Assembly (NCBI GenBank): GCA_020725925.1 | Contig: DYTN01000001.1 | Span: 140,116-204,115, forward strand | Length of the DNA: 64,000 nucleotides | Source: Methanobacteriota archaeon | GTDB lineage: Archaea > Thermoplasmatota > Thermoplasmata > UBA10834 | Reading direction: 5' to 3' | Shown here: piece after piece, positions 44,179 to 58,150 of the stretch | How positions within the stretch are numbered: position 1 is the first letter of the stretch | Layout of the letters: every line of letters starts with the position of its first letter | The notes under the pieces: generated by a model | What the model was told of the DNA's origin: nothing | The model's input: the letters and a program-made list of their open reading frames with translations, nothing else | Databases searched by the model: none | Program-made: the position numbers and the translations under genes

Positions 44179-44643
44179 ATGGTCGAGCGGAGAGTGTGCA
44201 CGTTCTGCGGCGTCGAGATCGAGCCGGGGACGGGCAGGATGTACATCAAGAAGGACGGAGTGGTCTTCAACTTCTGCAGCTCCAAATGCTACAAGAACAT
44301 GATAGACCTCGGGCGCGTGCCCAGGCGCACCACTTGGACGCGCTACTACGCCCGGGAGAAGCAGGTCCGCATGAAGGTCATGCCCGAGGTCGAGGAAAAG
44401 CCGAAGGCCAGGAAGCTCAGGAAGGGCGAGGAGAGGCCGGCTGAGGAGAAGGCGGAGGCGAAGCCTCCGAAGGAGCCCGCTCCCGAGGCCAAGGAGGAGA
44501 AGCCGAAGGCCGCGGAGGAGAAGAAGCCGGCCCACAAGGAGCCGGCGAAGAAGGCGCCCGCGAAGAAGCCAGAGCCTTCCAAGGCCGAGAAGCCCAAACC
44601 GAAGCCGGAGCACAAGGAGAAGTCCGAGAAGGGAGAGGCATGA
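44179..44643 (+). CDS. rpl24e: 50S ribosomal protein L24e with long Lys/Glu/Pro/Ala-rich C-terminal extension
   Basis: [35 protein letters not shown] zinc finger; low-complexity tail of roughly 80 residues. Confidence 0.95.
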
Positions 44644-45095
44644 TCGAGAAGACCTTCGTGATGATCAAGCCCGACGGAGTCCAGCGGGGGCTCGTCGGCA
44701 GGATACTGACCAGGTTCGAGGAGAGGGGGCTCAAGGTCTGTGCCATGAAGATGATGCGGATTCAGAAGGAGCTCGCCGAGAGGCACTACGCGGAGCACAA
44801 GGGCAAGAGCTTCTTCGAGCCCACGGTGTCGCACGTGACCTCCGGGCCGGTCGTCTGCATGGTGCTCGAGGGCGAGAACGCCATCGCGGCCGTGCGGGCG
44901 ATGATGGGCAAGACGAACCCTCAGGACGCTGCCCCGGGGACCATCAGGGGCGACTTCTGTCAGGTGACCGGCAGGAACATCGTCCACGGGTCCGACTCCT
45001 CGGAGAGCGCTAAGCGCGAGATCGGCCTGTTCTTCAACGACTACGAGCTCCAGAATTACGAGAAGATCGACGAGGCCTGGCTGTTCGAGCAATAG
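44640..45095 (+). CDS. ndk: nucleoside diphosphate kinase
   Basis: [37 protein letters not shown] active site. Confidence 0.97.
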
Positions 45096-45097
45096 AA

Positions 45098-45111
45098 CCC
45101 CTTCGGTCCAT
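45098..45111 (+). repeat. 14-bp direct-repeat copy CCCCTTCGGTCCAT (tRNA 3'-end-like core), copy 1
   Basis: Identical 14-mer at 46082-46095; lies 2 bp after the ndk stop. Confidence 0.7.
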
Positions 45112-45205
45112 TTTCCTTTTCAAGAAGACATCTCGGTGTCCAGCGCTCGGAAAAGACTATGGAGAGGGAAGGTCATGGAACTACTGAGGAATTCTGAACG
45201 GCGAG

Positions 45206-45937
45206 GTGAGATATGTGGGTTTGAGTGATGCCGATTTGCCAGCTCATATTGAGTGTCCGAAATGCGGTGCAAAGAACATGCGCACCGAAAGCTTCTGCTC
45301 GAACTGCGACGCGAGCCTTGTTGAGACAAAGGAAGAGATACTGACAGAAATCGCGAAATCGCGCGGTAAGGACTATGAATCCAATCCTTTTGCCGGAGAG
45401 AAGCGTGAGGGATTGATACTAAGAGCAAGAACTATCCAGTTTGCGGCCATTGGCCACAGAGTGATGGAAGGCACGTTAGTCCTCACCACCAAGAGAATGC
45501 TCTTTGCGGCCAACAAGGCTGGCTACGTGAAATCGATTTGGGGGATTGCGGGCTCAAAGGGCGGGATCCTGGGCACGATTGCATCTGCCGGTTCGATGAA
45601 GACTCGAGTCGGCGGTCCAAATGACTTCTACCTTCTGCCGGATCAGCTGCTGAGAGCATACGATGGCAACTTTCAGGTGCCTTATGAGGCCGTCACAAAG
45701 GTTGAGGGAGAAAACAAGCGCGACTCACTTGTGCTGAGCCTCTCCACCAAAGGGGTATATCCGTTCACGCCGGAGAAGGTTGACTTCACATTCCTTCCAC
45801 CGGATGAAATGGTCAGAGAGTATTCCTCAAAGGGGCTTGGCAAGGACCAGGCATTCCAGGACTACAGTCAGAGATCTAGGAGCGCCATTGAGAAGATTCT
45901 GCTTGGTGCGAAAGTCGAGATAGTCTGGAAATCGTAA
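45206..45937 (+). CDS. zinc-ribbon plus PH-like (bPH/GRAM-type) domain protein
   Basis: CPKCGAKNMRTESFCSNCDASL ribbon followed by a beta-rich domain (VMEGTLVLTTKRMLFAA). Confidence 0.65.
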   Translation: MRYVGLSDADLPAHIECPKCGAKNMRTESFCSNCDASLVETKEEILTEIAKSRGKDYESNPFAGEKREGLILRARTIQFAAIGHRVMEGTLVLTTKRMLFAANKAGYVKSIWGIAGSKGGILGTIASAGSMKTRVGGPNDFYLLPDQLLRAYDGNFQVPYEAVTKVEGENKRDSLVLSLSTKGVYPFTPEKVDFTFLPPDEMVREYSSKGLGKDQAFQDYSQRSRSAIEKILLGAKVEIVWKS

Positions 45938-45979
45938 TGGATATCGGACAGGCAATGGATAGGTAGGCAAGAGGTGTGC

Positions 45980-46095
45980 GAGGAGCTACCAATCCCTCTT
46001 CTTCGAACCCTTCCCGAGATGCCTTTCTGGAAGGATCTTGTGCCTTTTCGAGTCGAGCCATTCGAAGATGTGGGTTCAAATCCCCTTCGGTCCAT
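45980..46095 (+). repeat. tRNA-3'-end-like structured element E1
   Basis: Last 89 nt are about 89% identical, gap-free, to 48755-48843; contains GTGGGTTCAAATCCC T-arm-like sequence ending in CCA. Confidence 0.7.
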
Positions 46096-46452
46096 ATAGA
46101 CTTTTTAATAAAAATATCAAAATCTTTTCGTCGATGTTTGGTTTCGTCTCGCAAGAACTCATAGAAGAACAAAAGCGAACCATCTCTAGTCCTTGTCTCA
46201 GCGGCATTGCCGGACCAGTGCACAATGTGCACGATCCAACACTGAGGACGACCGTGATGGCAAACATCAAATACTCAGATTCAAATTCGCGTACAACCAA
46301 AAAGGTACTTGGGTACGTTCGCCGGGGGAACGTCGTAGTGCGTGACGCGCTGCGACTTTGGCTGCAATCGAAGATGCCTTCTCCCCCGATTCTTCTCCGT
46401 ACATAATGCAAGTCTGTGGGTCACTTGATCGCGCACAGGAGGAAATGAGGAG

Positions 46453-47352
46453 ATGGCAACGAGGGTTGGTGCAGTAGGCGATAGACGGATCCATCCTGGG
46501 GGTTCTGGAATAGAACTGCGAGCACGAGGTCTCGGCAAGAAGCGCAGCCGTCTAAAGCTTCTCGCGGCGGCGGCATCGGGCTTGGTCGTCATCGTCGCGG
46601 CTGTCGCTTGCTTCGCGTCTCCGTCTGGTACACCGATACCAGCTAGAGCGTACGCGATATCCTGGACAATTTCCACGATTGACAGCGTCGGGGATGTGTA
46701 CGGCTGGACCTCGCTCGCCCTCGATTCCGAGGATTGCGTCCATATCAGCTACTACGACGAGACGAACGCCAATCTCAAATACGCCACGAATGCAGATGGC
46801 GTATGGGTGACTTCCACGATTGACCAAGTGGGGAGTGTCGTCCGGGGTGGTGATACATCCCTCGCAGTTGACTCCCACAACAGGATCCACATCAGCTACT
46901 ATGACAGCACGAACGGAGATCTCAAGTACGCCACCAATGCTGGTGGCACCTGGACGTTCTACAGAATCGACCGTCCCGAAGTGTATGGTAGCGCCTCTTC
47001 GCTTGCGCTCGACTCAGGGAACAACGTCCACATCAGCTGCGTGGAGCCTGGGGCTAGCCTCAAGTACGTCACGAATGGGGAATATGATTGGGAGATATCA
47101 GCAGTCGACGACCCTGTCCCTGGAGGCTACCCGTCGCTAGCGGTCGACTCCCGCGACATGGTTCACATTTCCTATATGGACGCCGATAACAAGGACCTCA
47201 AGTACGCCGTCTCAAATGAACCAGTCATCCCCGAGTTCGGGCAGGATACGGTCTTCCTCGTCGTCACTGCAACGCTGGTCCTTTTCGTCGCACTCGCCCG
47301 GAGAAGTGAGTTGAGACATGGAAAACAGCAAGCCCGAGGGTGGAAGAAATGA
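46453..47352 (+). CDS. surface-type propeller-repeat protein, 4 repeats, PEFG-TM-Arg C-terminus
   Basis: Repeats SLALDS..HISYYD.TN..LKYATN.GG.W; N-terminal TM; C-term PVIPEFGQDTVFLVVTATLVLFVALARR. Confidence 0.8.
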   Translation: MATRVGAVGDRRIHPGGSGIELRARGLGKKRSRLKLLAAAASGLVVIVAAVACFASPSGTPIPARAYAISWTISTIDSVGDVYGWTSLALDSEDCVHISYYDETNANLKYATNADGVWVTSTIDQVGSVVRGGDTSLAVDSHNRIHISYYDSTNGDLKYATNAGGTWTFYRIDRPEVYGSASSLALDSGNNVHISCVEPGASLKYVTNGEYDWEISAVDDPVPGGYPSLAVDSRDMVHISYMDADNKDLKYAVSNEPVIPEFGQDTVFLVVTATLVLFVALARRSELRHGKQQARGWKK

Positions 47353-48686
47353 CAACAACTGGTAGGACAGTGCCTCCGAGAGATTCGGCCTCGGACCGAA
47401 TCGCCAATCCTGGCGCGGTGGGAGACAGGGGATTTGGCCCGGGCGGTTCCAAGACAGTATTCAAAGTAGGAGTCACAGGGAGACGTAGGGCACGTCTCAA
47501 GATGCTGGCTGCGCTGGCATCGGGTTTGGTTGTAGTCGTGGCGGCCGTGGCCTACTTCGCGTCGTCGTCCGGCACACCGATACCAGGCAAGACGTACGCA
47601 ATCTCTTGGACGATATCCACGATTGATGGCGACGGTAGTGTGGGCCCGTTCCCCTCGCTTGCGCTCGATTCCGTGGGCAACGCCCACATCAGCTACCGCG
47701 ACGCAACTAACCTTGACTTGAAGTATGCCACAAATTCTGGTGGTTCGTGGACGACTTTCACCATTGACAGCGACGGCGACTTGGGGATTGGCACTTCCGT
47801 TGCGCTCGATTCTCACGACAAGGTCCATATCAGCTACACGGGCTTCAGGGAGGACTTCGGGAACCAGTCTCTTATGTACGCCACGAATACCGATGGCTCG
47901 TGGGCGACTTCCACGATTCACAGCGAGATCCAAGGAGGTTTTACCTCTCTCGCTCTCTCCTCCGACGATGAAGTCCACATTGGCTATGTGGTGTCAGAGT
48001 CATACAGCTATTACAGGGGTATCTGGTACGCCACGAATGCCGGCGGTTCCTGGGCAATCACTTGTGTCGAAATGGGAGACCACTCACACGCCGATTCGCT
48101 CGCACTTGACTCCAGCGACAATGTCTACATAAGCTTCTGTGGCGGCTACGGGACTCTCAAGTATGCCACAAATGCCGGGGGCTCGTGGGTGACTTCCATA
48201 ATCGATAGCGGGACTTTCCCCTCACTTGCATTCGACGCTAGCGACAAGGCCCATGTAAGCTACACAGAGAGCACGTATACCGGACTCAAGTACGCTTCGA
48301 ATGTTGATGGATCATGGGTAACCTCCACGGTCGACAGTGAAGCTCGCGCATACTCTTCACTTGCACTCGATGCTAGCGATATTGCTCACATCAGCTACAA
48401 GGACGATACGAATCACTGTCTCAAGTACGCCACAAATGCTGGCGGCTCCTGGGCAATCTCCACGATTGAAGACGGGTCCTTTGGAGGGACTTCAATCGCC
48501 CTAGATTCCGAAGGCTATATCCACGTTGCATACTACGACAGCACGAACCAAGATCTCAAGTACGCCGTCTCCGCACAGCCTATCATCCCGGAGTTTGGGG
48601 CATCAGGTATGGTTTTGGTAATCATCGCGATGGTGTGTATCTTCGTGGCTGTTCGCCGGACAACGCTATCATCGATAAGAGAATAG
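47349..48686 (+). CDS. paralogous propeller-repeat protein, 7 repeats, PEFG-TM-Arg C-terminus
   Basis: Same N-terminus and repeats; ATG overlaps upstream TGA; C-term PIIPEFGASGMVLVIIAMVCIFVAVRR. Confidence 0.8.
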   Translation: MTTTGRTVPPRDSASDRIANPGAVGDRGFGPGGSKTVFKVGVTGRRRARLKMLAALASGLVVVVAAVAYFASSSGTPIPGKTYAISWTISTIDGDGSVGPFPSLALDSVGNAHISYRDATNLDLKYATNSGGSWTTFTIDSDGDLGIGTSVALDSHDKVHISYTGFREDFGNQSLMYATNTDGSWATSTIHSEIQGGFTSLALSSDDEVHIGYVVSESYSYYRGIWYATNAGGSWAITCVEMGDHSHADSLALDSSDNVYISFCGGYGTLKYATNAGGSWVTSIIDSGTFPSLAFDASDKAHVSYTESTYTGLKYASNVDGSWVTSTVDSEARAYSSLALDASDIAHISYKDDTNHCLKYATNAGGSWAISTIEDGSFGGTSIALDSEGYIHVAYYDSTNQDLKYAVSAQPIIPEFGASGMVLVIIAMVCIFVAVRRTTLSSIRE

Positions 48687-48726
48687 AACGAGCCGATCCT
48701 CTGCTGATTGAAGAGAAATGGTTTGT

Positions 48727-48843
48727 GAGGGGCTGCTAACCCCTCCTTTTGTATACCCTTCCCGAGATGCCTTTCCGGAAGGACTTTGTACCTTTTCGAG
48801 TCGAGCCAGTCGAAAAAGTGGGTTCAAATCCCCTTTGACCCAT
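48727..48843 (+). repeat. tRNA-3'-end-like structured element E2
   Basis: Homologous to E1; hairpins GAGGGG/CCCCTC, CCTTCC/GGAAGG, TTTTCGA/TCGAAAA, then GTGGGTTCAAATCCC. Confidence 0.7.
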
Positions 48844-48910
48844 CCCCATTCTTGATGGCCAGTCCGCGCCGTCGGTTAACTTGATATAAGACCCATCCTT
48901 TCTTCGTGGC

Positions 48911-50665
48911 ATGGCCGTCAGGCACCCCATTGTCTCAGTCATGGGCCACGTCGACCACGGCAAGTCGACGATCCTGGACATGATCAGGGGGACCGAGGTC
49001 GTGAGCCGCGAGGCAGGCGGCATAACGCAGCACATAGGCGCGACAGATGTGCCCATAGACACCATATACAAGCTCTGCGGGCCGCTGATCGGGGACAGGA
49101 AGTTCACCGTTCCCGGCCTGCTCTTCATAGACACCCCGGGCCACTACTCCTTCGTCACTCTCCGGACCAGGGGCGGCGCCCTCGCGGACCTCGCAGTGCT
49201 CGTAGTAGACATCAACGAGGGCCTGAAGCCGCAGACGATAGAGTCAATCAACATCCTCAAGAAGTTCCGCACGCCCTTCGTCATCGCTGCCAACAAGATA
49301 GACCTCATACCTGGCTGGCGGCACGAGAAGTGGAAGACCTTCGGCCAGGCGATGGAGGCACAGGACCCGCGGGTGGCGGCAGAGCTGGACTCGAAGCTGT
49401 ACAACCTGACGGGGAAGATATTCGACAAGGCTGGGTTCAGCGCGGACAGGTTCGACAAGATATCCGACTTCACGAAAACAGTCGCGATAGTGCCCATCAG
49501 CGGCAAGTACGGCGAAGGGCTGCCCGACCTGTTGCTCATGCTTGTGGGGCTCGCGCAGAGGTTCCTCGAGGAGGAGCTTCGGACCGAGGAAGGGCCTGGC
49601 GAGGGCACGGTCCTCGAGGTGAAGGAGGAGCGGGGGATTGGGACCGCCGTCGACACGATCATCTACAAGGGCACGGTCAGGGTGGGTGACCAGATTGTGG
49701 TGTCGTCCGTCAAGGACGAGCTCATCGTGACCAAGGTCAAGGGGCTCCAGCGGCCGAAGCCGCTGGACGAGATAAGGGACCCGACGCAGAGGTTCGACAG
49801 GGTGAAGGAAGCCACCGCAGCTGCCGGCATACGCATCATCGCGCAGAACCTCGAGAACGCCATGGCCGGAGGGACCGTCAGGGTGGTGAGCGGGGACCTC
49901 GAGCAGCTGAAGGAAGAGGTGCAGAAGGAGAGCAAGATCAAGGCGGAGCTCGCCGAGCAGGGGATAATCGTGCGCGGGGACGCGATCGGCTCCCTCGAGG
50001 CCTTCGCCTTCGAGGCGAAGAAGACCGAGCTTCCGATACGCAAGATAGACATCGGGAACGTCACGCGCAAGGATGTGATCGAGGCATCCAACTTCGACAA
50101 CCCCCTGCACCGCGCCATATTCGCGTTCAACGTCGCGATCAACGATGACGCCAAGTCGGAGGCCAACTCCCTCGGCGTCAGGATATTCGAGAACGACGTC
50201 ATGTACCGCCTGCTGGAGGACTATCGCAACTGGTGCGACGAGCGCAAGAAGGAGCTCGAGGTCGAGAAGCGCCTCCAGATCGTCTTCCCTGGCAAGATCA
50301 TGATCCTGCGGGACCACGTGTTCCGGGTGAGCAAGCCCGCCATCGTCGGCGTCAGGGTGCTCGCGGGCAGGATAAGGCCTGGCCAGGGGCTGATTCGGGA
50401 GGACGGTCGGTCGATCGGCAAGATCAAGAGCATCAGGAGCGGAGACGAGTCCCTGAAGGAGGCGATCGCGGGTGCGGAGGTCGCCATCGCGATAGACGAC
50501 GCTGTCGTGGGCAGGCAGATCGAGGTCGAGGATGTGCTCCTCATAGACGTCCCCGAGGGGCATGCCCACGAGCTCCTCAACTACCAGCTCAAGCCCGACG
50601 AGCTGGAGGTCTTGGAGCAGCTCAAGGCGATCAAGAGGAAGGAGAAGCCCTTCTGGGGTGCGTAG
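48911..50665 (+). CDS. infB: translation initiation factor aIF5B
   Basis: PIVSVMGHVDHGKSTILDMIRG, IDTPGHYSF, NKIDLIPGW. Confidence 0.97.
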   Translation: MAVRHPIVSVMGHVDHGKSTILDMIRGTEVVSREAGGITQHIGATDVPIDTIYKLCGPLIGDRKFTVPGLLFIDTPGHYSFVTLRTRGGALADLAVLVVDINEGLKPQTIESINILKKFRTPFVIAANKIDLIPGWRHEKWKTFGQAMEAQDPRVAAELDSKLYNLTGKIFDKAGFSADRFDKISDFTKTVAIVPISGKYGEGLPDLLLMLVGLAQRFLEEELRTEEGPGEGTVLEVKEERGIGTAVDTIIYKGTVRVGDQIVVSSVKDELIVTKVKGLQRPKPLDEIRDPTQRFDRVKEATAAAGIRIIAQNLENAMAGGTVRVVSGDLEQLKEEVQKESKIKAELAEQGIIVRGDAIGSLEAFAFEAKKTELPIRKIDIGNVTRKDVIEASNFDNPLHRAIFAFNVAINDDAKSEANSLGVRIFENDVMYRLLEDYRNWCDERKKELEVEKRLQIVFPGKIMILRDHVFRVSKPAIVGVRVLAGRIRPGQGLIREDGRSIGKIKSIRSGDESLKEAIAGAEVAIAIDDAVVGRQIEVEDVLLIDVPEGHAHELLNYQLKPDELEVLEQLKAIKRKEKPFWGA

Positions 50666-51203: not shown

Positions 51204-52435
51204 TGAAGGTCCCCACCCAGCCAGAGACCAACATCGGCATGGTCGGCCATGTCGACCATGGGAAGACCATGCTGACGAAGGCTCTGACGGGTGAGATGAC
51301 CGACAGGCACTCCGAGGAGGTCAAGAGGGGCATATCCATCCGCCTCGGGTACGCCGATGTCGCATTCTACAAGTGCAAGGACTGCGAAGGGCCCGAGTGC
51401 TACACGAACCAGCCGTCGTGCCCGAACTGCAAGGGCGAGTGCGAGCTGCTCAGGTCGGTGTCCTTCGTCGATGCGCCCGGCCACGAGACGCTCATGGCAA
51501 CGATGCTCTCGGGCGCCGCCATCATGAACGGCGCGCTCCTGCTCGTGGCCGCGAACGAGAAGTGTCCCCAGCCGCAGACCAGGGAGCACCTGATGGCGCT
51601 GTCCATCATAGGTGTGGACAAGATCATCGTGGTCCAGAACAAGATCGACATCGTCTCCGCGGAGGAGGCGAGGGAGAACTACAAGGAGATACAGGGCTTC
51701 GTCAAGGGGACCATCGCTGACAAGGCCCCCATCATTCCGATATCCGCCCACCACGACGTCAACATTGACATGCTCATCGAGGCCATCGAGCTCAAGATAC
51801 CGACCCCGAAGTGGGACAAGTCGAAGCCCGCGAGAATGTGCATCGCGAGGTCTTTCGACATCAACGTGCCAGGTACGAAGATAGAGAAGCTCAAGGGCGG
51901 GGTCGTGGGCGGCTCGCTCACCCAGGGAAGGCTCAGCATCGGGGACGAGGTGGAGATCAAGCCCGGGAGAAAGGTGGAGTCGGGCAGCAAATCCTCATGG
52001 GAGCCGATCCAAACCAAGGTCAGGTCGCTGTACGCTGGCGGGCTCTCGCTCGAGCATGCCGGCCCAGGCGGGCTGATCGCCATAGGCACGGGCCTAGATC
52101 CCGCGTTCACCAAGTCAGATTCCCTGGTCGGGAGGATCGCAGGCGTCCCAGACACGCTCCCACCTGTCGTGAACGAACTCACCATCGAGACGACCCTCAT
52201 GAAGAGGGTCGTGGGCGTCTCGTCGGAGCTTGCCGTGGAGAACCTGAAGACGAACGAGCCCCTGATGCTCAGCGTCGGCACCGCGACGACCGTCGGTGTG
52301 GTCACGAGCGGCAGGTCGGACTCCGCCGAGGTCTCGCTCAAGATACCGGTATGCATCGAGAAAGGCCAGAGGATCGCCATCTCGAGGCGGATAGCCGGCA
52401 AGTGGCGCCTGATCGGCTACGGCTCCGTGAAGTAG
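51203..52435 (+). CDS. eif2g: translation initiation factor aIF2 gamma
   Basis: [21 protein letters not shown], zinc knuckle [26 protein letters not shown]. Confidence 0.97.
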
Positions 52436-52446
52436 GGGCGCTCCTC

Positions 52447-52806
52447 ATGCCCAAGGCCGTCGTCCTGGACTCGAACGCCCTTCTCATGCCGTTCCAGTTC
52501 AAGCTCAATCTCGACAAAGAGCTGAAGCGTCTGTTCGGCGACCTTCCTGTGTTTGTCCCCAGCTCAGTTCTTGGCGAGCTTGCGAATTCCTTGGACAAGA
52601 ACTCGAAGGCGGCCCTCGCATTGGCCCGGAAGTTCAGCATTGTCGAGACGGAGTTCAGCGGGGACGACGCTGTCATGGCCATCGCAGAGCAGCGGGACGC
52701 CGCCGTCCTGACGAACGACAAGGAGCTCATCGGACGCCTCAGGGAGAGGCGCATACCGGTGATTCGGTTGCGGGGCGAGCGCTATCTAGTCGCCGACGAA
52801 TTCTAG
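52447..52806 (+). CDS. PIN-domain nuclease-like protein
   Basis: VVLDSNALLMPFQF...FVPSSVLGEL...VLTNDKELIGRL. Confidence 0.85.
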   Translation: MPKAVVLDSNALLMPFQFKLNLDKELKRLFGDLPVFVPSSVLGELANSLDKNSKAALALARKFSIVETEFSGDDAVMAIAEQRDAAVLTNDKELIGRLRERRIPVIRLRGERYLVADEF

Positions 52807-52854
52807 CACGAACGCGACGAAAACATATTATGACGGCTAGGTAATCCGAGCCAT

Positions 52855-53514
52855 GCCATGCATGAGAAGCAGATTGCCACCCTCAAGCACATCGCGCTCA
52901 TGGGCGGGGTGCATGACTACATAGCGATCTCCTCCCGGGAGCTCGGGAACGTTCTCGAGATCAGCCAACAGTCCGCATCGAAGAAGATCCTTGAGCTCCT
53001 CGGCGACGCCCTGATAGAAAGGGACCTGGGGGCGAGGAGGCAGAGGATCAAGCTTACGGACAAGGGGTTCGACCTTCTCCGCAAAGAGTACTCCGACTAC
53101 CAGCGCATATTCGAGATGAAGGACCATCTCGTGATCATCGGCAGTGTCACGTCCGGCCTCGGGGAGGGGCAGTACTATGTCAATCAAGAGGCGTACGCCG
53201 AGCAGTTCCAGAAGAAGCTCTGGTTCAAGCCGTACGAGGGCACCCTGAACCTGCGGCTCGCCGACCCCGAGCTTCCGAAGCTCGACATCCTGAGAAAGTC
53301 GGAGGGCATCCTGATCAAGGGGTTCGAGAAGGAAGGCAGGACCTTCGGCGATGTCAAGTGCTTCCTCGCAACAATCCACAACATGGAGTGCGCAGTCGTG
53401 TTGCCAGTGAGGTCCCACCACACGGACATCATCGAGGTAATCTGCAAGTTCCACCTGAGGCGCTCGCTCGGTATCAAGGATGGTGACCAGGTCGAGCTGA
53501 TTGTCTCCTTGTGA
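52855..53514 (+). CDS. HTH + CTP-dependent riboflavin kinase (RbkR/DUF120)
   Basis: N-terminal winged HTH; kinase domain GSVTSGLGEGQYYV...FKPYEGTLNLRL. Confidence 0.9.
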   Translation, partial: AMHEKQIATLKHIALMGGVHDYIAISSRELGNVLEISQQSASKKILELLGDALIERDLGARRQRIKLTDKGFDLLRKEYSDYQRIFEMKDHLVIIGSVTSGLGEGQYYVNQEAYAEQFQKKLWFKPYEGTLNLRLADPELPKLDILRKSEGILIKGFEKEGRTFGDVKCFLATIHNMECAVVLPVRSHHTDIIEVICKFHLRRSLGIKDGDQVELIVSL

Positions 53515-53796
53515 GGGAGTCCACTGACCTAGCTCCGACGGAAGCCCCAACTTGGAGCTTGCCGTTCGGTGACAGCAGATCTGGCGTTCAAATGCGGGCT
53601 TGGGGGTCTTGGCGTCGAACGCCACGGCTGCCTTGGGTTCTCTCGACATCTGAGATGACCTTGGCACACTTGGGCATACGCACACAAGTCATCGTTGATT
53701 TCTGCTTCCTCATGATTTGCGTGCTCGCCGTCAAGCTTGAACACAGTAGAAAGAGATAAGTGGAATGGAGTGCATCGGATGATGTTGGGGGATGAA

Positions 53797-54090
53797 ATGG
53801 CAACATATGTCGTACTATCGAAGCTGACGGACGAGGGACGCAAGACTCTGAAGTCTAAACCAGAGAGGGTCAAGGAAGTGAACGCGGAGATCTCCAAGAT
53901 GGGCGCAAAGGTCCTGCATCAGTTCGCTCTTTTGGGCAAGTATGATTTCCTGACAGTCCTCGAGGCGAAAGACAATGTCTCGATTGCCAAGATCATGGTT
54001 GAGCTTGGCTCACGCGGGACTCTCGAAACGATGACACTGTCGGCAATACCTGTGGATGAGTTCCTAGCTAGCTTGGAGAAATCGGGCTGA
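53797..54090 (+). CDS. GYD-domain protein
   Basis: ATYVVLSKLTDEGRKTLKSKPERVKEVNAEISKMGAKV...LGKYDFLTVLEAKD. Confidence 0.85.
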   Translation: MATYVVLSKLTDEGRKTLKSKPERVKEVNAEISKMGAKVLHQFALLGKYDFLTVLEAKDNVSIAKIMVELGSRGTLETMTLSAIPVDEFLASLEKSG

Positions 54091-54336
54091 CGATCGAATT
54101 CGGCATCTTCTGATTTGCGCGACGCAGACAGGCGATTCCCTGCACTCAGGGCACACACATCACTCACATTGCCATCCTTCATTCTGAGAAAGCCTCCAGA
54201 GCTTGCCTGAGATCCCCTGTCCGGCAATCGTCGATGTCTCGGAGTATTTGTCCCAATCTGTGCGTGGAAAGGCCTAACTAGAAGACACCCCGATTCCGGG
54301 CATGCCTCGAGGGTGGTTCGAGGAGGGGGTGAATAA

Positions 54337-54639
54337 CTGGCGATATCAGTTACGTTTTGGAGACTCGGCCCGAATGTGTCTCCACAAGAGGCTGCGAAGG
54401 TCGCAGTCAAGCTCATGGAGAGTGGATCATTCCCACCAAAGGGGGTGGAGATACTCGGATGGTACATCTGTCCTGGTGGCAGGGGCGTGACGATAACCGA
54501 GTCGAAGTCCATAGAATCTGCTGACGCCTTCAAGAACTGGCTTGTGTGGGTACAGGAGAGAAAGGACTTCTTTGAGTGTTACGAAGTCCACCCAGCTGTA
54601 TCCGCACAGGATGCCATCAAGATGGCTCTCGGCAAGTAG
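54337..54639 (+). CDS. small alpha/beta-barrel-like protein (DUF3303-like), possible non-ATG start
   Basis: Frame open upstream of the called GTG (54376) to CTG 54337, directly after GGAGGGGGTG; ISVTFWRLGPNVSPQEAAKV gives a sensible first strand. Confidence 0.5.
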   Translation: MAISVTFWRLGPNVSPQEAAKVAVKLMESGSFPPKGVEILGWYICPGGRGVTITESKSIESADAFKNWLVWVQERKDFFECYEVHPAVSAQDAIKMALGK

Positions 54640-55161
54640 AAGAACCAGACGTCATGAAACACTTTTCCCTTTTTGGTTTTCCCGGTGGAATGCGTGTTAT
54701 GACAGAACATGGAATTCCCCTTTCAGTCGAGGACTGATGCACCTAGCCGCACTCACGCCGACCAGAAGGGCGTGTTCTCCATATGTCAGAAAGCGAGATC
54801 CACCCCTTCTTCCGTACCGGCAACTGAAGTATCCAGCTTCGCTCGCCGTTAGATCCCCGGCCATAGTTCAAACTAGCGAGCCTTTCTTGCCACTATGACA
54901 GAGCCGGGCATTCGCTCTGGACAGGATATGAGAATTGTTGCGTCCAGCCTTGACTGCTGGCGGATTCCGTGCAGAAATCCGGGGGCCGCACCAGACATGA
55001 ATCCACAGAGTGGGTCGATGTTCAATCAAGAGCCCTCGTCTTCTTGCCATTTGGATGCTCAATGCGCTCACTCGAGAAGAAATCGATGGGACCCTGCATT
55101 ATAGGCCATTACAGGAGAAGATGCGCCTTCATCGTATGGCGTTCTCAGGCACAGAATCGGG

Positions 55162-55518
55162 TCAGCTTCTCCGTAGCTTGGACCTCACCCTTTCGTACTC
55201 ATCGTGGTCAATCTCGCCGCTCGCATATCGCTGATCGAGTATGTCGAATGGGCTAGGCTGCGGCGGGGCATATACTGGGTAAGCGTTGTACGCTGGCCTC
55301 TCCTCCAATCCGCCTACAGCGACCACGATGATCAGGATCAGTATGATTGCCGGCACGGCCATGAAGGCCATACTCCAGCCCCAGCCACCTCCTCCCATCA
55401 TTCCGTAGTCGTTGTCAGTTCCCGAGAATGTCAGTGCGCCTATGGTCGCCACAGCCACTGCAGATATCACAAGTACGATCACGAGCCATAGCAGTGTGCT
55501 TGTCTTTCTGTTTGTCAT
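55162..55518 (-). CDS. SHOCT-domain membrane protein
   Basis: 2 TM segments and C-terminal DILDQRYASGEIDHDEYERVRSKL. Confidence 0.82.
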   Translation of the reverse strand: MTNRKTSTLLWLVIVLVISAVAVATIGALTFSGTDNDYGMMGGGGWGWSMAFMAVPAIILILIIVVAVGGLEERPAYNAYPVYAPPQPSPFDILDQRYASGEIDHDEYERVRSKLRRS

Positions 55519-55618
55519 GTTATCACCTCCTCTGTCTTCGTCGTCTCTTGGGTCCTCAAAATGTACTGGCATGATCCCATACCGCTGCATCCGCCATTTC
55601 TTCCCTTCATTCCTGTTG

Positions 55619-58150
55619 TCATGTCTCAGCTGGCACTGGATAGACTTCTTCGATTCCACCAGCCAGCGATCTCGCCTTCTTGGCAACTCTCTGAGCCTTT
55701 GGCTCCAGGCGGGTCTTCTTTAGAGTGGCGGCGTTGGTGACGACCGAGAGCGAACTCAGCGACATTGCCGCGGCTGCGATTATCGGGTTCAGCAGGCCCA
55801 GCGCAGCGATCGGGATTGCCGCGGTGTTGTAGCCCAGCGCCCATGCGAGATTCTGCCTGATCTTCCTCATGGTCGCTCTGCTAAGCCAGATCCCTCGTAC
55901 GACATCTTCCAGGTCATCTCGGATCAGGACGATTCCACCTGTCTCCTTTGCGATATCGGACCCGCTGCCAAGGGCAATGCCAACGTCTGCTTGAGCAAGC
56001 GCCGGGGAATCGTTGATGCCGTCACCCACCATGCTCACGACCTTCCCCTCCTGCTGCATCTTCTTGATGACCCCTGCCTTCTCCCACGGGCGCACGCCTG
56101 CGATCACGCGCTCGATGCCGACCTGCTTTGCGATGGCCATTGCCGTCCTCTCGTTGTCTCCCGTCAGCATGATGACCTCAAGCCCCATCGATTTCAGTTG
56201 CTCAATCGCATGAGCCGAGTTCGGCTTCGGAGTATCGGCAAGAGCGAGCAGGCCAAGCAGTCTCCCGTCGACAGTCAGGAACATTACCGTCTTGCCCTCG
56301 GACTCAAGTCCAGCGGCGTTGTTGTCCAGGTGGTGGTATTGAACCCCTTCGCCTTCAAGGAAAGCTCTGTTGCCAAGGAGAACCTTGCGGCCTTTGACGG
56401 TTCCTCTGACTCCACTTCCCGACACGGCTTCGAATTCCTCTGCAGGTCCGACCCCGACCCCTCTCGATTTGGCCGCCTCTATGACCGCTGCGGCCAACGG
56501 GTGTTCTGAGCCCTGCTCTATGGCGGCCGCGTAGGAAATCAGCTCGTTCTCCGTCGCCTCGACTGCCACGACATCCGTCACCTTGGGCTCGCCTCGAGTG
56601 ATAGTCCCAGTCTTGTCCAGAACTATCACCTGGAGCTTCCTTGCCCTCTCCAAGTACTCTCCGCCACGGATCAGGATGCCCATCTCAGCCCCTCTGCCCA
56701 CACCTACCATGAGGGCCGTAGGAGTAGCAATGCCCAGCGCGCACGGGCAGGATATGATCAGGACCGCCACGAAGCTCAAGACCGCGATGGTCAAGTCTCC
56801 TGTGAGCGTCCAGACGATGAATGTTGCAACCGCGGACAACAGCACAGCAGGCACAAAGACCGCGCTCACCCTGTCCACCAGTCGTTGAATGGGAGCGTTG
56901 TTTGCCTGGGCCTCCTCGACCATCTTGATGATCTGGCTAAGCGCTGTGTCGGAACCAACGCGGCTCGCCCTGAACACCAGCCGGCCATTGAGATTAGTCG
57001 TGGCACCTACCAGCTCGCTGCTCGCGGACTTCTCCACCGGCAAGCTCTCACCGGTGATCATCTTCTCGTCAACGGTGGACTGGCCTTCGATCACCACGCC
57101 GTCCGTCGGGATCTTCTCGCCGGGCTTCACGACCAAGGTGTCGCCGACCATGACCTGGTCGGCTGGCACCGTAGTCTCGACCCCGTCTCGCAGAAGAGTG
57201 GCCGTCAAGGGTCTCAGGTCCATCAGCTTGCGGACAGCTGCCGAGCTGCGCTGTCTTATGTAGTCCTCCATGAACCTGCCCAACAGCACGAACGCGATGA
57301 TGATCGCAGAGACCTCGAAGTACACGTTCTTCTCGTCGACGGGCACGAGAGAAGGCGCGAATACCACTACTACGCTGTAGAAGTAGGCGGTCAGTGTGCC
57401 CATGCTGATCAAGAGGTCCATGTTTGCACGTCTGCTCTTCAGGGCTCGATAGGCTCCAACATAGAATGGCCAACCGCCGACGAACTGGATTGGAGTGACC
57501 AGAAGGAACAGCCACATTCCCCATGTGAACCACGGGAGTGAGGGAATGGGCGCCCATGTGACCAGAGTCGCCCCGGCCGCCAGCCCGAGGAAGACAGCCA
57601 CCCTTAGGACTGCAAGAATCAGTACCCCGGAGATGGCGACGGTCACCCTCCTCTTCAACGCCTTGAGCTCCTTCTCGGGGTTCTCGAATGTGCGCGCGCA
57701 CGAATCCATGCAGAAGTAGTAGTCCCTTCCTCCAATCTGCCTATGGATAGCTGTGCGCTTGTCCACGGTCATGCCACAGACCGGATCGCGGGCCAGCATG
57801 CTCGGGTCCGAGTCGCTGGGGGGTGGATGTGAGGTATTGCGGGACCCGGCATGCGTCATCTGAGCATTCGATCTTCCATGGACACGACGATCTCTCGAAA
57901 GGAAGGCGAAGAGCTTGGGAGGGCTCCTTTTTTCCTCCGAGTCAGGGGCTTCGTAGCCCGCATCCCTGATCTTGCTTCTGATCGCATCCAAGGTCACGAT
58001 CGCATCGTCGAAGGCCACTTGGGCCTCGCCCTTCGTGCCATCAACAGAGACTGATCTTACTCCGGGAACGGTCCTCAGGGCCGCCTCTATGTTGATCTCG
58101 CACGAATGGCAGCTCATTCCCTCGATCCGGACTGTGACATCGGTAATCAT
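55619..58150 (-). CDS. copA: copper-type P1B ATPase with HMA and YHS domains
   Basis: [69 protein letters not shown]. Confidence 0.95.

Follow-up and report, generated by a model that had tools for sequence, protein, structure and literature searches.

The window, a stretch of 64,000 nucleotides, covers positions 140116–204115 of contig C58 in the genome designated G000 (2.04 Mb, 73 contigs, 92.9% complete). Between ndk and infB it carries an insert of 3.75 kb (45096–48844) that contains three genes and two related tracts of about 125 bp, named E1 and E2 (Table 1). The 14-mer CCCCTTCGGTCCAT, which has a chance expectation of 0.015 occurrences per 2.04 Mb genome, was found at 45098 and again at 46082 within E1, and E1 and E2 were 89% identical over 89 bp and 83% identical over about 124 bp. 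The three genes, the two 14-mer copies and the related E2 were all located where the original prediction had placed them. Its impression by eye that the insert is lower in G+C was confirmed by calculation, as the GC content was 0.535 in the insert vs. 0.6245 in the upstream and 0.615 in the downstream flank, and the GC3 of the cargo genes was lower as well (0.60–0.65 vs. 0.84–0.93 in neighbouring genes). Also as predicted, neither the ORFs nor a protein-family search revealed an integrase gene within the insert. The 3.75 kb insert is foreign DNA. Elsewhere in the window, at about 52251–57000, another low-G+C region was observed (3.7-kb windows below 0.56).

Table 1. Features of the ndk–infB region, in window coordinates.
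Feature	Position	Strand	Evidence
ndk, left host flank	44640..45095	+	PF00334, 1.5e-60; infB directly next in 18 relatives
attL-like 14-mer CCCCTTCGGTCCAT	45098..45111	+	Equals the tRNA-Ala(TGC) 3′ end up to its last base; tRNA-Ala at C50
Left-end arm-like motif, type B, GGAAAAGACTATGGAGA	45149..45165	+	5 mismatches to GGAAAAGGCCATAGGGG
Cargo 1, 243-aa zinc-ribbon protein (probable)	45206..45937	+	Zinc-ribbon matches below cut-off
E1, putative right end of cassette 1	45969..46095	+	Profile matches; att core (tRNA-Ala 3′ end) at 46070–46095
Cargo 2, secreted beta-propeller-repeat protein	46453..47352	+	Repeats; homologue of cargo 3
Cargo 3, secreted beta-propeller-repeat protein	47340..48686	+	BNR_4, 1e-07
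E2, putative right end of cassette 2	48716..48843	+	Profile matches; tail CCCCTTTGACCCAT read as hybrid attR at the host site
Ancestral infB promoter-like sequence GGTTAACTTGATATAAG	48872..48890	+	Aligns with GGTTAA..TTGATATA of insert-free relatives
infB (aIF5B), right host flank	48911..50665	+	Protein-family match; located in relatives

The ndk–infB Junction in Relatives

The comparison of relatives proposed by the original prediction returned empty sites throughout: ndk adjoins infB in 18/18 other genomes of the family, which represent three genera, with a gap of about 70–165 bp. At the empty sites of the same genus, the sequences after the ndk stop, e.g. AAACCCCTTCCATCC (G005) and GAAACCCATTCGTC (G001), are near in kind to CCCCTTCGGTCCAT. 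When the flanks of the window were joined at CCCCTT, an ndk–infB junction of normal length was obtained, and its infB-proximal part, GGTTAA..TTGATATA, aligned with the insert-free relatives. The TATA-like sequence that the original prediction noted ahead of infB, which starts after E2, is present there (TTGATATAAG). Since the infB-proximal part aligns with insert-free relatives, the infB promoter-like sequence is ancestral, which places the insert between two transcription units, with neither being split. Thus, no operon is split by the insert, contrary to what had been proposed; infB has a promoter-like sequence of its own that is conserved in insert-free relatives.

Distribution and Nature of E

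An initial search of the family found E in 15 of 19 genomes, with identities of up to 88% between genera. With a sequence profile built from 21 copies, 52 copies at many loci were detected in 16 of the 21 genomes of the order, and when a 300-genome draw of the class was searched with stricter filters, the same 16 genomes were recovered vs. none of the 279 others. The genomes sharing the E core were deposited as Thermoplasmata or euryarchaeal MAGs, and on this basis the uncultured archaeon represented by G000 is presumed to belong to Thermoplasmata. The exact core pattern had no match in IMG/VR. It did match GTDB contigs beyond Thermoplasmata (Rhizobium, Actinoplanes and others), but these matches to a 19-base pattern were attributed to chance. 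Within G000, the E copies differ by 11–20%; a very degenerate E-like stretch, on which the profile is silent, was noticed by eye after a 131-aa gene (G000:C50, L039:5740–5830).

The two possible hairpins of E showed no covariation across the 21 copies, and only one of three copies folded better than shuffles, so E was rejected as a structured RNA; an Rfam search of the insert yielded no RNA family, just chance snoRNA matches. E contains an arm-like sequence, TGTACCTTTT..GAGCCAG, and its conservation lies in the DNA sequence rather than in structure, which fits protein-binding sites.

tRNA-Derived Tails and Left Ends

The final base of E1 is preceded by 23 bases that match the 3′ end of the G000 tRNA-Ala(TGC) gene (C50:32651) without a mismatch. 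This tRNA is followed by a gene for a 1121-aa protein, a truncated E, a glyoxalase gene and a further E, this one full. In the same orientation as the tRNA, E was found downstream of tRNA-Ala(TGC) in five genomes (G000, G004, G012, G014 and G018), of tRNA-Val(TAC) in G002 and of tRNA-Ile(GAT) in G017. With the exception of G000, the E tails share 17–25 nt with the upstream tRNA at its 3′ end, with zero to three mismatches. Because the tail matches the 3′ end of whichever tRNA lies upstream, Ala, Val or Ile, E is the right end, together with attR, of an integrative element that targets tRNAs and not, as first thought, a free-standing boundary repeat. Its expected tie to junctions did hold, since E copies elsewhere are located at element–target junctions.

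Direct repeats that include the tRNA 3′ end flank the elements in G011:C63, G002, G004, G014, G017 and G018. In the window insert, the direct repeats are the 14-mers at 45098 and 46082 together with a derived copy in E2, and what was targeted is an intergenic stretch similar to the tRNA-Ala 3′ end, not a tRNA gene, while many relatives sit at tRNA genes. Perfect tRNA-Ala tails also occur on some E copies that have no tRNA-Ala gene nearby in the regions read, and the simple model leaves these unexplained.

On the opposite side of the elements, the type A left end, present in some stretches behind tRNAs, reads CTGGCACGGCTACAAAAGGTACA, an inverted match of TGTACCTTTTTCAGCCGAGCCAG of E, and is formed by the int gene's 3′ end. 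The type B left-end motif GGAAAAGGCCATAGGGG occurred within 70 nt after 10 of 33 E copies vs. 0.45% of random stretches. The left end of the window insert could be aligned with the region that follows tRNA-Ala in G011, and only 1 of 2000 shuffles did as well; in cassette 2 of the window, no left arm was recognised.

A partial tRNA at C12 was considered as an att copy and dismissed, as it looks like an intron-bearing tRNA instead. It is a tRNA-like gene with a TCT anticodon (G000:C12, L041:2423–2520), whose T-arm is apparently interrupted by a short hairpin insert, AGGCGCTTTGAGCGCC; this insert resembles non-canonical archaeal tRNA introns.

The Integrase IntE and a Complete Element

At G011:C33, E is adjoined by a gene that reads toward the att site and encodes IntE, a tyrosine recombinase of 348 aa (PF00589, 2.4e-12). 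Among the models tested, XerA/XerC scored best (2.6e-13), vs. 1.6e-4 for the integron integrase TIGR02249. A full-length relative is encoded in G011:C63, another, partly masked, lies next to tRNA-Ala(CGC) in G008, and several more are C-terminal remnants abutting tRNA 3′ ends in several genomes; the aligned copies retain the residues R..K..HxxR..H..Y.

At the locus G011:C63, an element of about 5.3 kb is complete, comprising tRNA-Ile, IntE, a serine resolvase, a methyltransferase, small genes and E, with identical att copies, AAATCCGGTTGGGCCCACCAC, at either end. The final integrase codons (GGPNRI and the stop) are coded inside the 3′ end of tRNA-Ile on the opposite strand. In this element, the serine resolvase (PF00239, 2e-42) directly adjoins the tyrosine integrase (L230:9502–11268).

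This was the one complete autonomous copy found, and most E elements have integrase remnants or no integrase. The IntE protein had no match in G000 (92.9% complete), and a trace of the int 3′ end behind the tRNA-Ala of this genome reads RFQMREIARIVPLVAVPVV*. No IntE was found in IMG/VR, and phage records gave distant integrases only, at about 26% identity. Other tyrosine recombinases of G000 are encoded in C18 (L141:5323–6267), adjoining tRNA-Pro(CGG), and in C28 (L142:4216–5241); they were discarded as candidates, having no homology to IntE and no E in the surrounding regions examined.

Cargo of the Elements

Cargo at the tRNA-Ala(TGC) site differs between species, being the 1121-aa protein, which has no family match, and the glyoxalase in G000, an FMN reductase and a ferredoxin-like protein in G014, and an EamA transporter and an M14 peptidase in G012. 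Propeller genes like those of the window recur in four other genomes: G005 and G016 have them next to E, while in G004 and G008 they lie behind tRNA-Ala(CGC), with an E following in G004. For cargo 1, no full-length relative was found in the family, only zinc-ribbon or weak partial matches. It had been described as a zinc-ribbon/PH-like protein; the zinc ribbon was matched below the cut-off, while the PH-like part was unconfirmed and the remainder has no family match.

Both propeller proteins of the window have an N-terminal transmembrane stretch, and their C-termini carry PEFG followed by a hydrophobic stretch and basic residues (47188–47352 and 48546–48686). In these ends we see a resemblance to archaeal surface proteins that have a tail of the sortase type; a search of NCBIfam gave no match.

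Discussion

The insert very probably consists of two tandem, integrase-less mobile cassettes that belong to a family of tRNA-targeting integrative elements of this order of Thermoplasmata. The sequence directly shows the empty sites and the E family with its tRNA-derived tails, as well as one autonomous copy, remnants of integrases and the enrichment of the left-end motif. Arguing for this reading are the 18/18 empty sites, the normal joined junction, the foreign composition and the occurrence of E in 16/21 genomes of the order vs. 0/279 others, as well as the IntE remnants at tRNAs, the int trace behind the genome's own tRNA-Ala, the inverted end motifs, the varied cargo and the recurrent propellers. 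Weighed against these are the lack of IntE in G000, the five mismatches in the left arm of the window, the missing left arm of cassette 2 and the tRNA-Ala-tailed E copies apart from tRNA-Ala genes; neither an excised form nor polymorphism at a junction was observed. Since the window cassettes carry no tyrosine recombinase, they were filed as non-autonomous derivatives.

The spread of cassettes by homologous recombination between E copies, which would then be passive repeats operating without an integrase, is improbable. E copies are indeed 83–89% similar in places and no integrase lies near the window insert, but in the window the left boundary consists of no more than the 14-mer and is hence too short for homologous recombination, the E tails track the identity of the target tRNA, and the same ends are seen on the complete element that carries an integrase. 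Misjoining of contigs at E repeats might be suspected in a 73-contig draft; it is scarcely credible for an insert that lies inside a 228-kb contig, in a genome whose E copies are as divergent as given above, and whose joined flanks restore a normal junction. The probability that the three genes already stood between ndk and infB in the ancestor and that the relatives lost them is close to nil, as nothing beyond their presence in the window genome speaks for it, whereas they are absent in all 18 relatives from three genera, differ in composition, and are accompanied by an E that is mobile elsewhere.

The alternation of single genes with a site of ~125 bp, in arrays, recalls an integron, in which E would be an attC-like site and the genes would be integron cassettes, and archaeal integrons have been reported (PMC9668308). 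However, the hairpins of E lack covariation, E ends in tRNA 3′ ends, IntE scores 2.6e-13 with XerA/XerC vs. 1.6e-4 with the integron integrase model, and many single insertions are found at tRNAs, not at one platform, which together make an archaeal integron highly improbable.

For the preferred reading as tRNA-targeting cassettes, the following mechanism is proposed. An intact member would enter a tRNA gene at its 3′ end via the tyrosine recombinase IntE, after which the left end (attL) would keep the tRNA whole. The right end would comprise the ~125 bp E, in which the arm-like motifs are in the opposite orientation to those of the left end, and behind it a duplicate of the tRNA 3′ end (attR). 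As the integrase gene has been lost from most copies, whose ends persist, they would be movable only by an enzyme supplied in trans, and IntE or a close relative may have moved the window cassettes in this way. The sequence CCCCTTCGGTCCAT after ndk, or its ancestor, may have served as a secondary attB, being a 14-bp non-tRNA match to the tRNA-Ala 3′ end, and this tRNA-Ala-like sequence is most likely the secondary site for both cassettes. One cassette would have arrived first and the second at an att copy so made, giving the arrangement attL-cargo1-E1-cargo2/3-E2, in which the E2 tail, CCCCTT then TGACCCAT, would be a hybrid attR at the host site. The suggestion of the original prediction that cassettes accreted stepwise at an attachment-like site fits this scheme, with the tRNA-Ala 3′ end as the att core, while the order of insertion is unproven.

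A broader possibility, which we put forward only tentatively, is that E is the dedicated tag of a dispersed archaeal cassette system, in which few IntE copies move many unrelated cassettes of 1–3 genes in trans. By the same tentative reading, the cassettes might move between the ends of tRNAs and sites that resemble these by chance, and stack into arrays, an integron-like outcome reached by a tRNA-end mechanism.

The tRNA-targeting cassettes described here would show in concrete terms how uncultured Thermoplasmata gain accessory genes, such as those for propeller proteins, redox proteins, a transporter and a peptidase, and they can apparently settle outside tRNA genes, here in the gap between translation genes. 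With the conserved E tag, the elements are easily recognised even after loss of the integrase, and they offer a testable archaeal att site with apparent arm motifs.

Archaeal tRNA-targeting elements with a tyrosine integrase are known as a general kind. Archaeal tyrosine recombinases favour tRNA 3′ ends and take related sequences at lower efficiency (reviewed in PMC8371274), tandem insertion at one site was reported for archaeal integrative elements (PMC8371274; PMC6563490), and the cryptic integrated elements of thaumarchaea are tyrosine-recombinase elements at tRNA genes (PMC6563490). The E family is alike in its tyrosine recombinase, att core in the tRNA 3′ end, short direct repeats and tandem insertion, but shares a right end of ~125 bp with inverted arm-like motifs, includes many integrase-less units of one to few genes, and uses a non-tRNA look-alike site. 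By this long conserved end, the prevalence of integrase-less units and the non-tRNA site, it differs from the known archaeal elements. A literature search limited to open-access sources and narrow terms found no description of the E family, and these conserved-end, mostly integrase-less cassettes seem to be undescribed in the literature searched.

Integron cassettes are similar in forming units of gene plus site in arrays, while the E site is a tRNA end, with neither an attC-like folded site nor an integron integrase. The lambda-type attP with arm sites is comparable in that the core equals the target and more distant conserved motifs lie on the element side, although arm binding by IntE is predicted solely from sequence. 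Tycheposons of marine bacteria are small tRNA-targeting elements with varied accessory cargo and often reduced mobility genes. The E elements, likewise small, tRNA-targeting and varied in cargo, may be regarded as a functional analogue only of the tycheposons (named in PMC10872708), from which they differ in the domain of life and in the recombinase.
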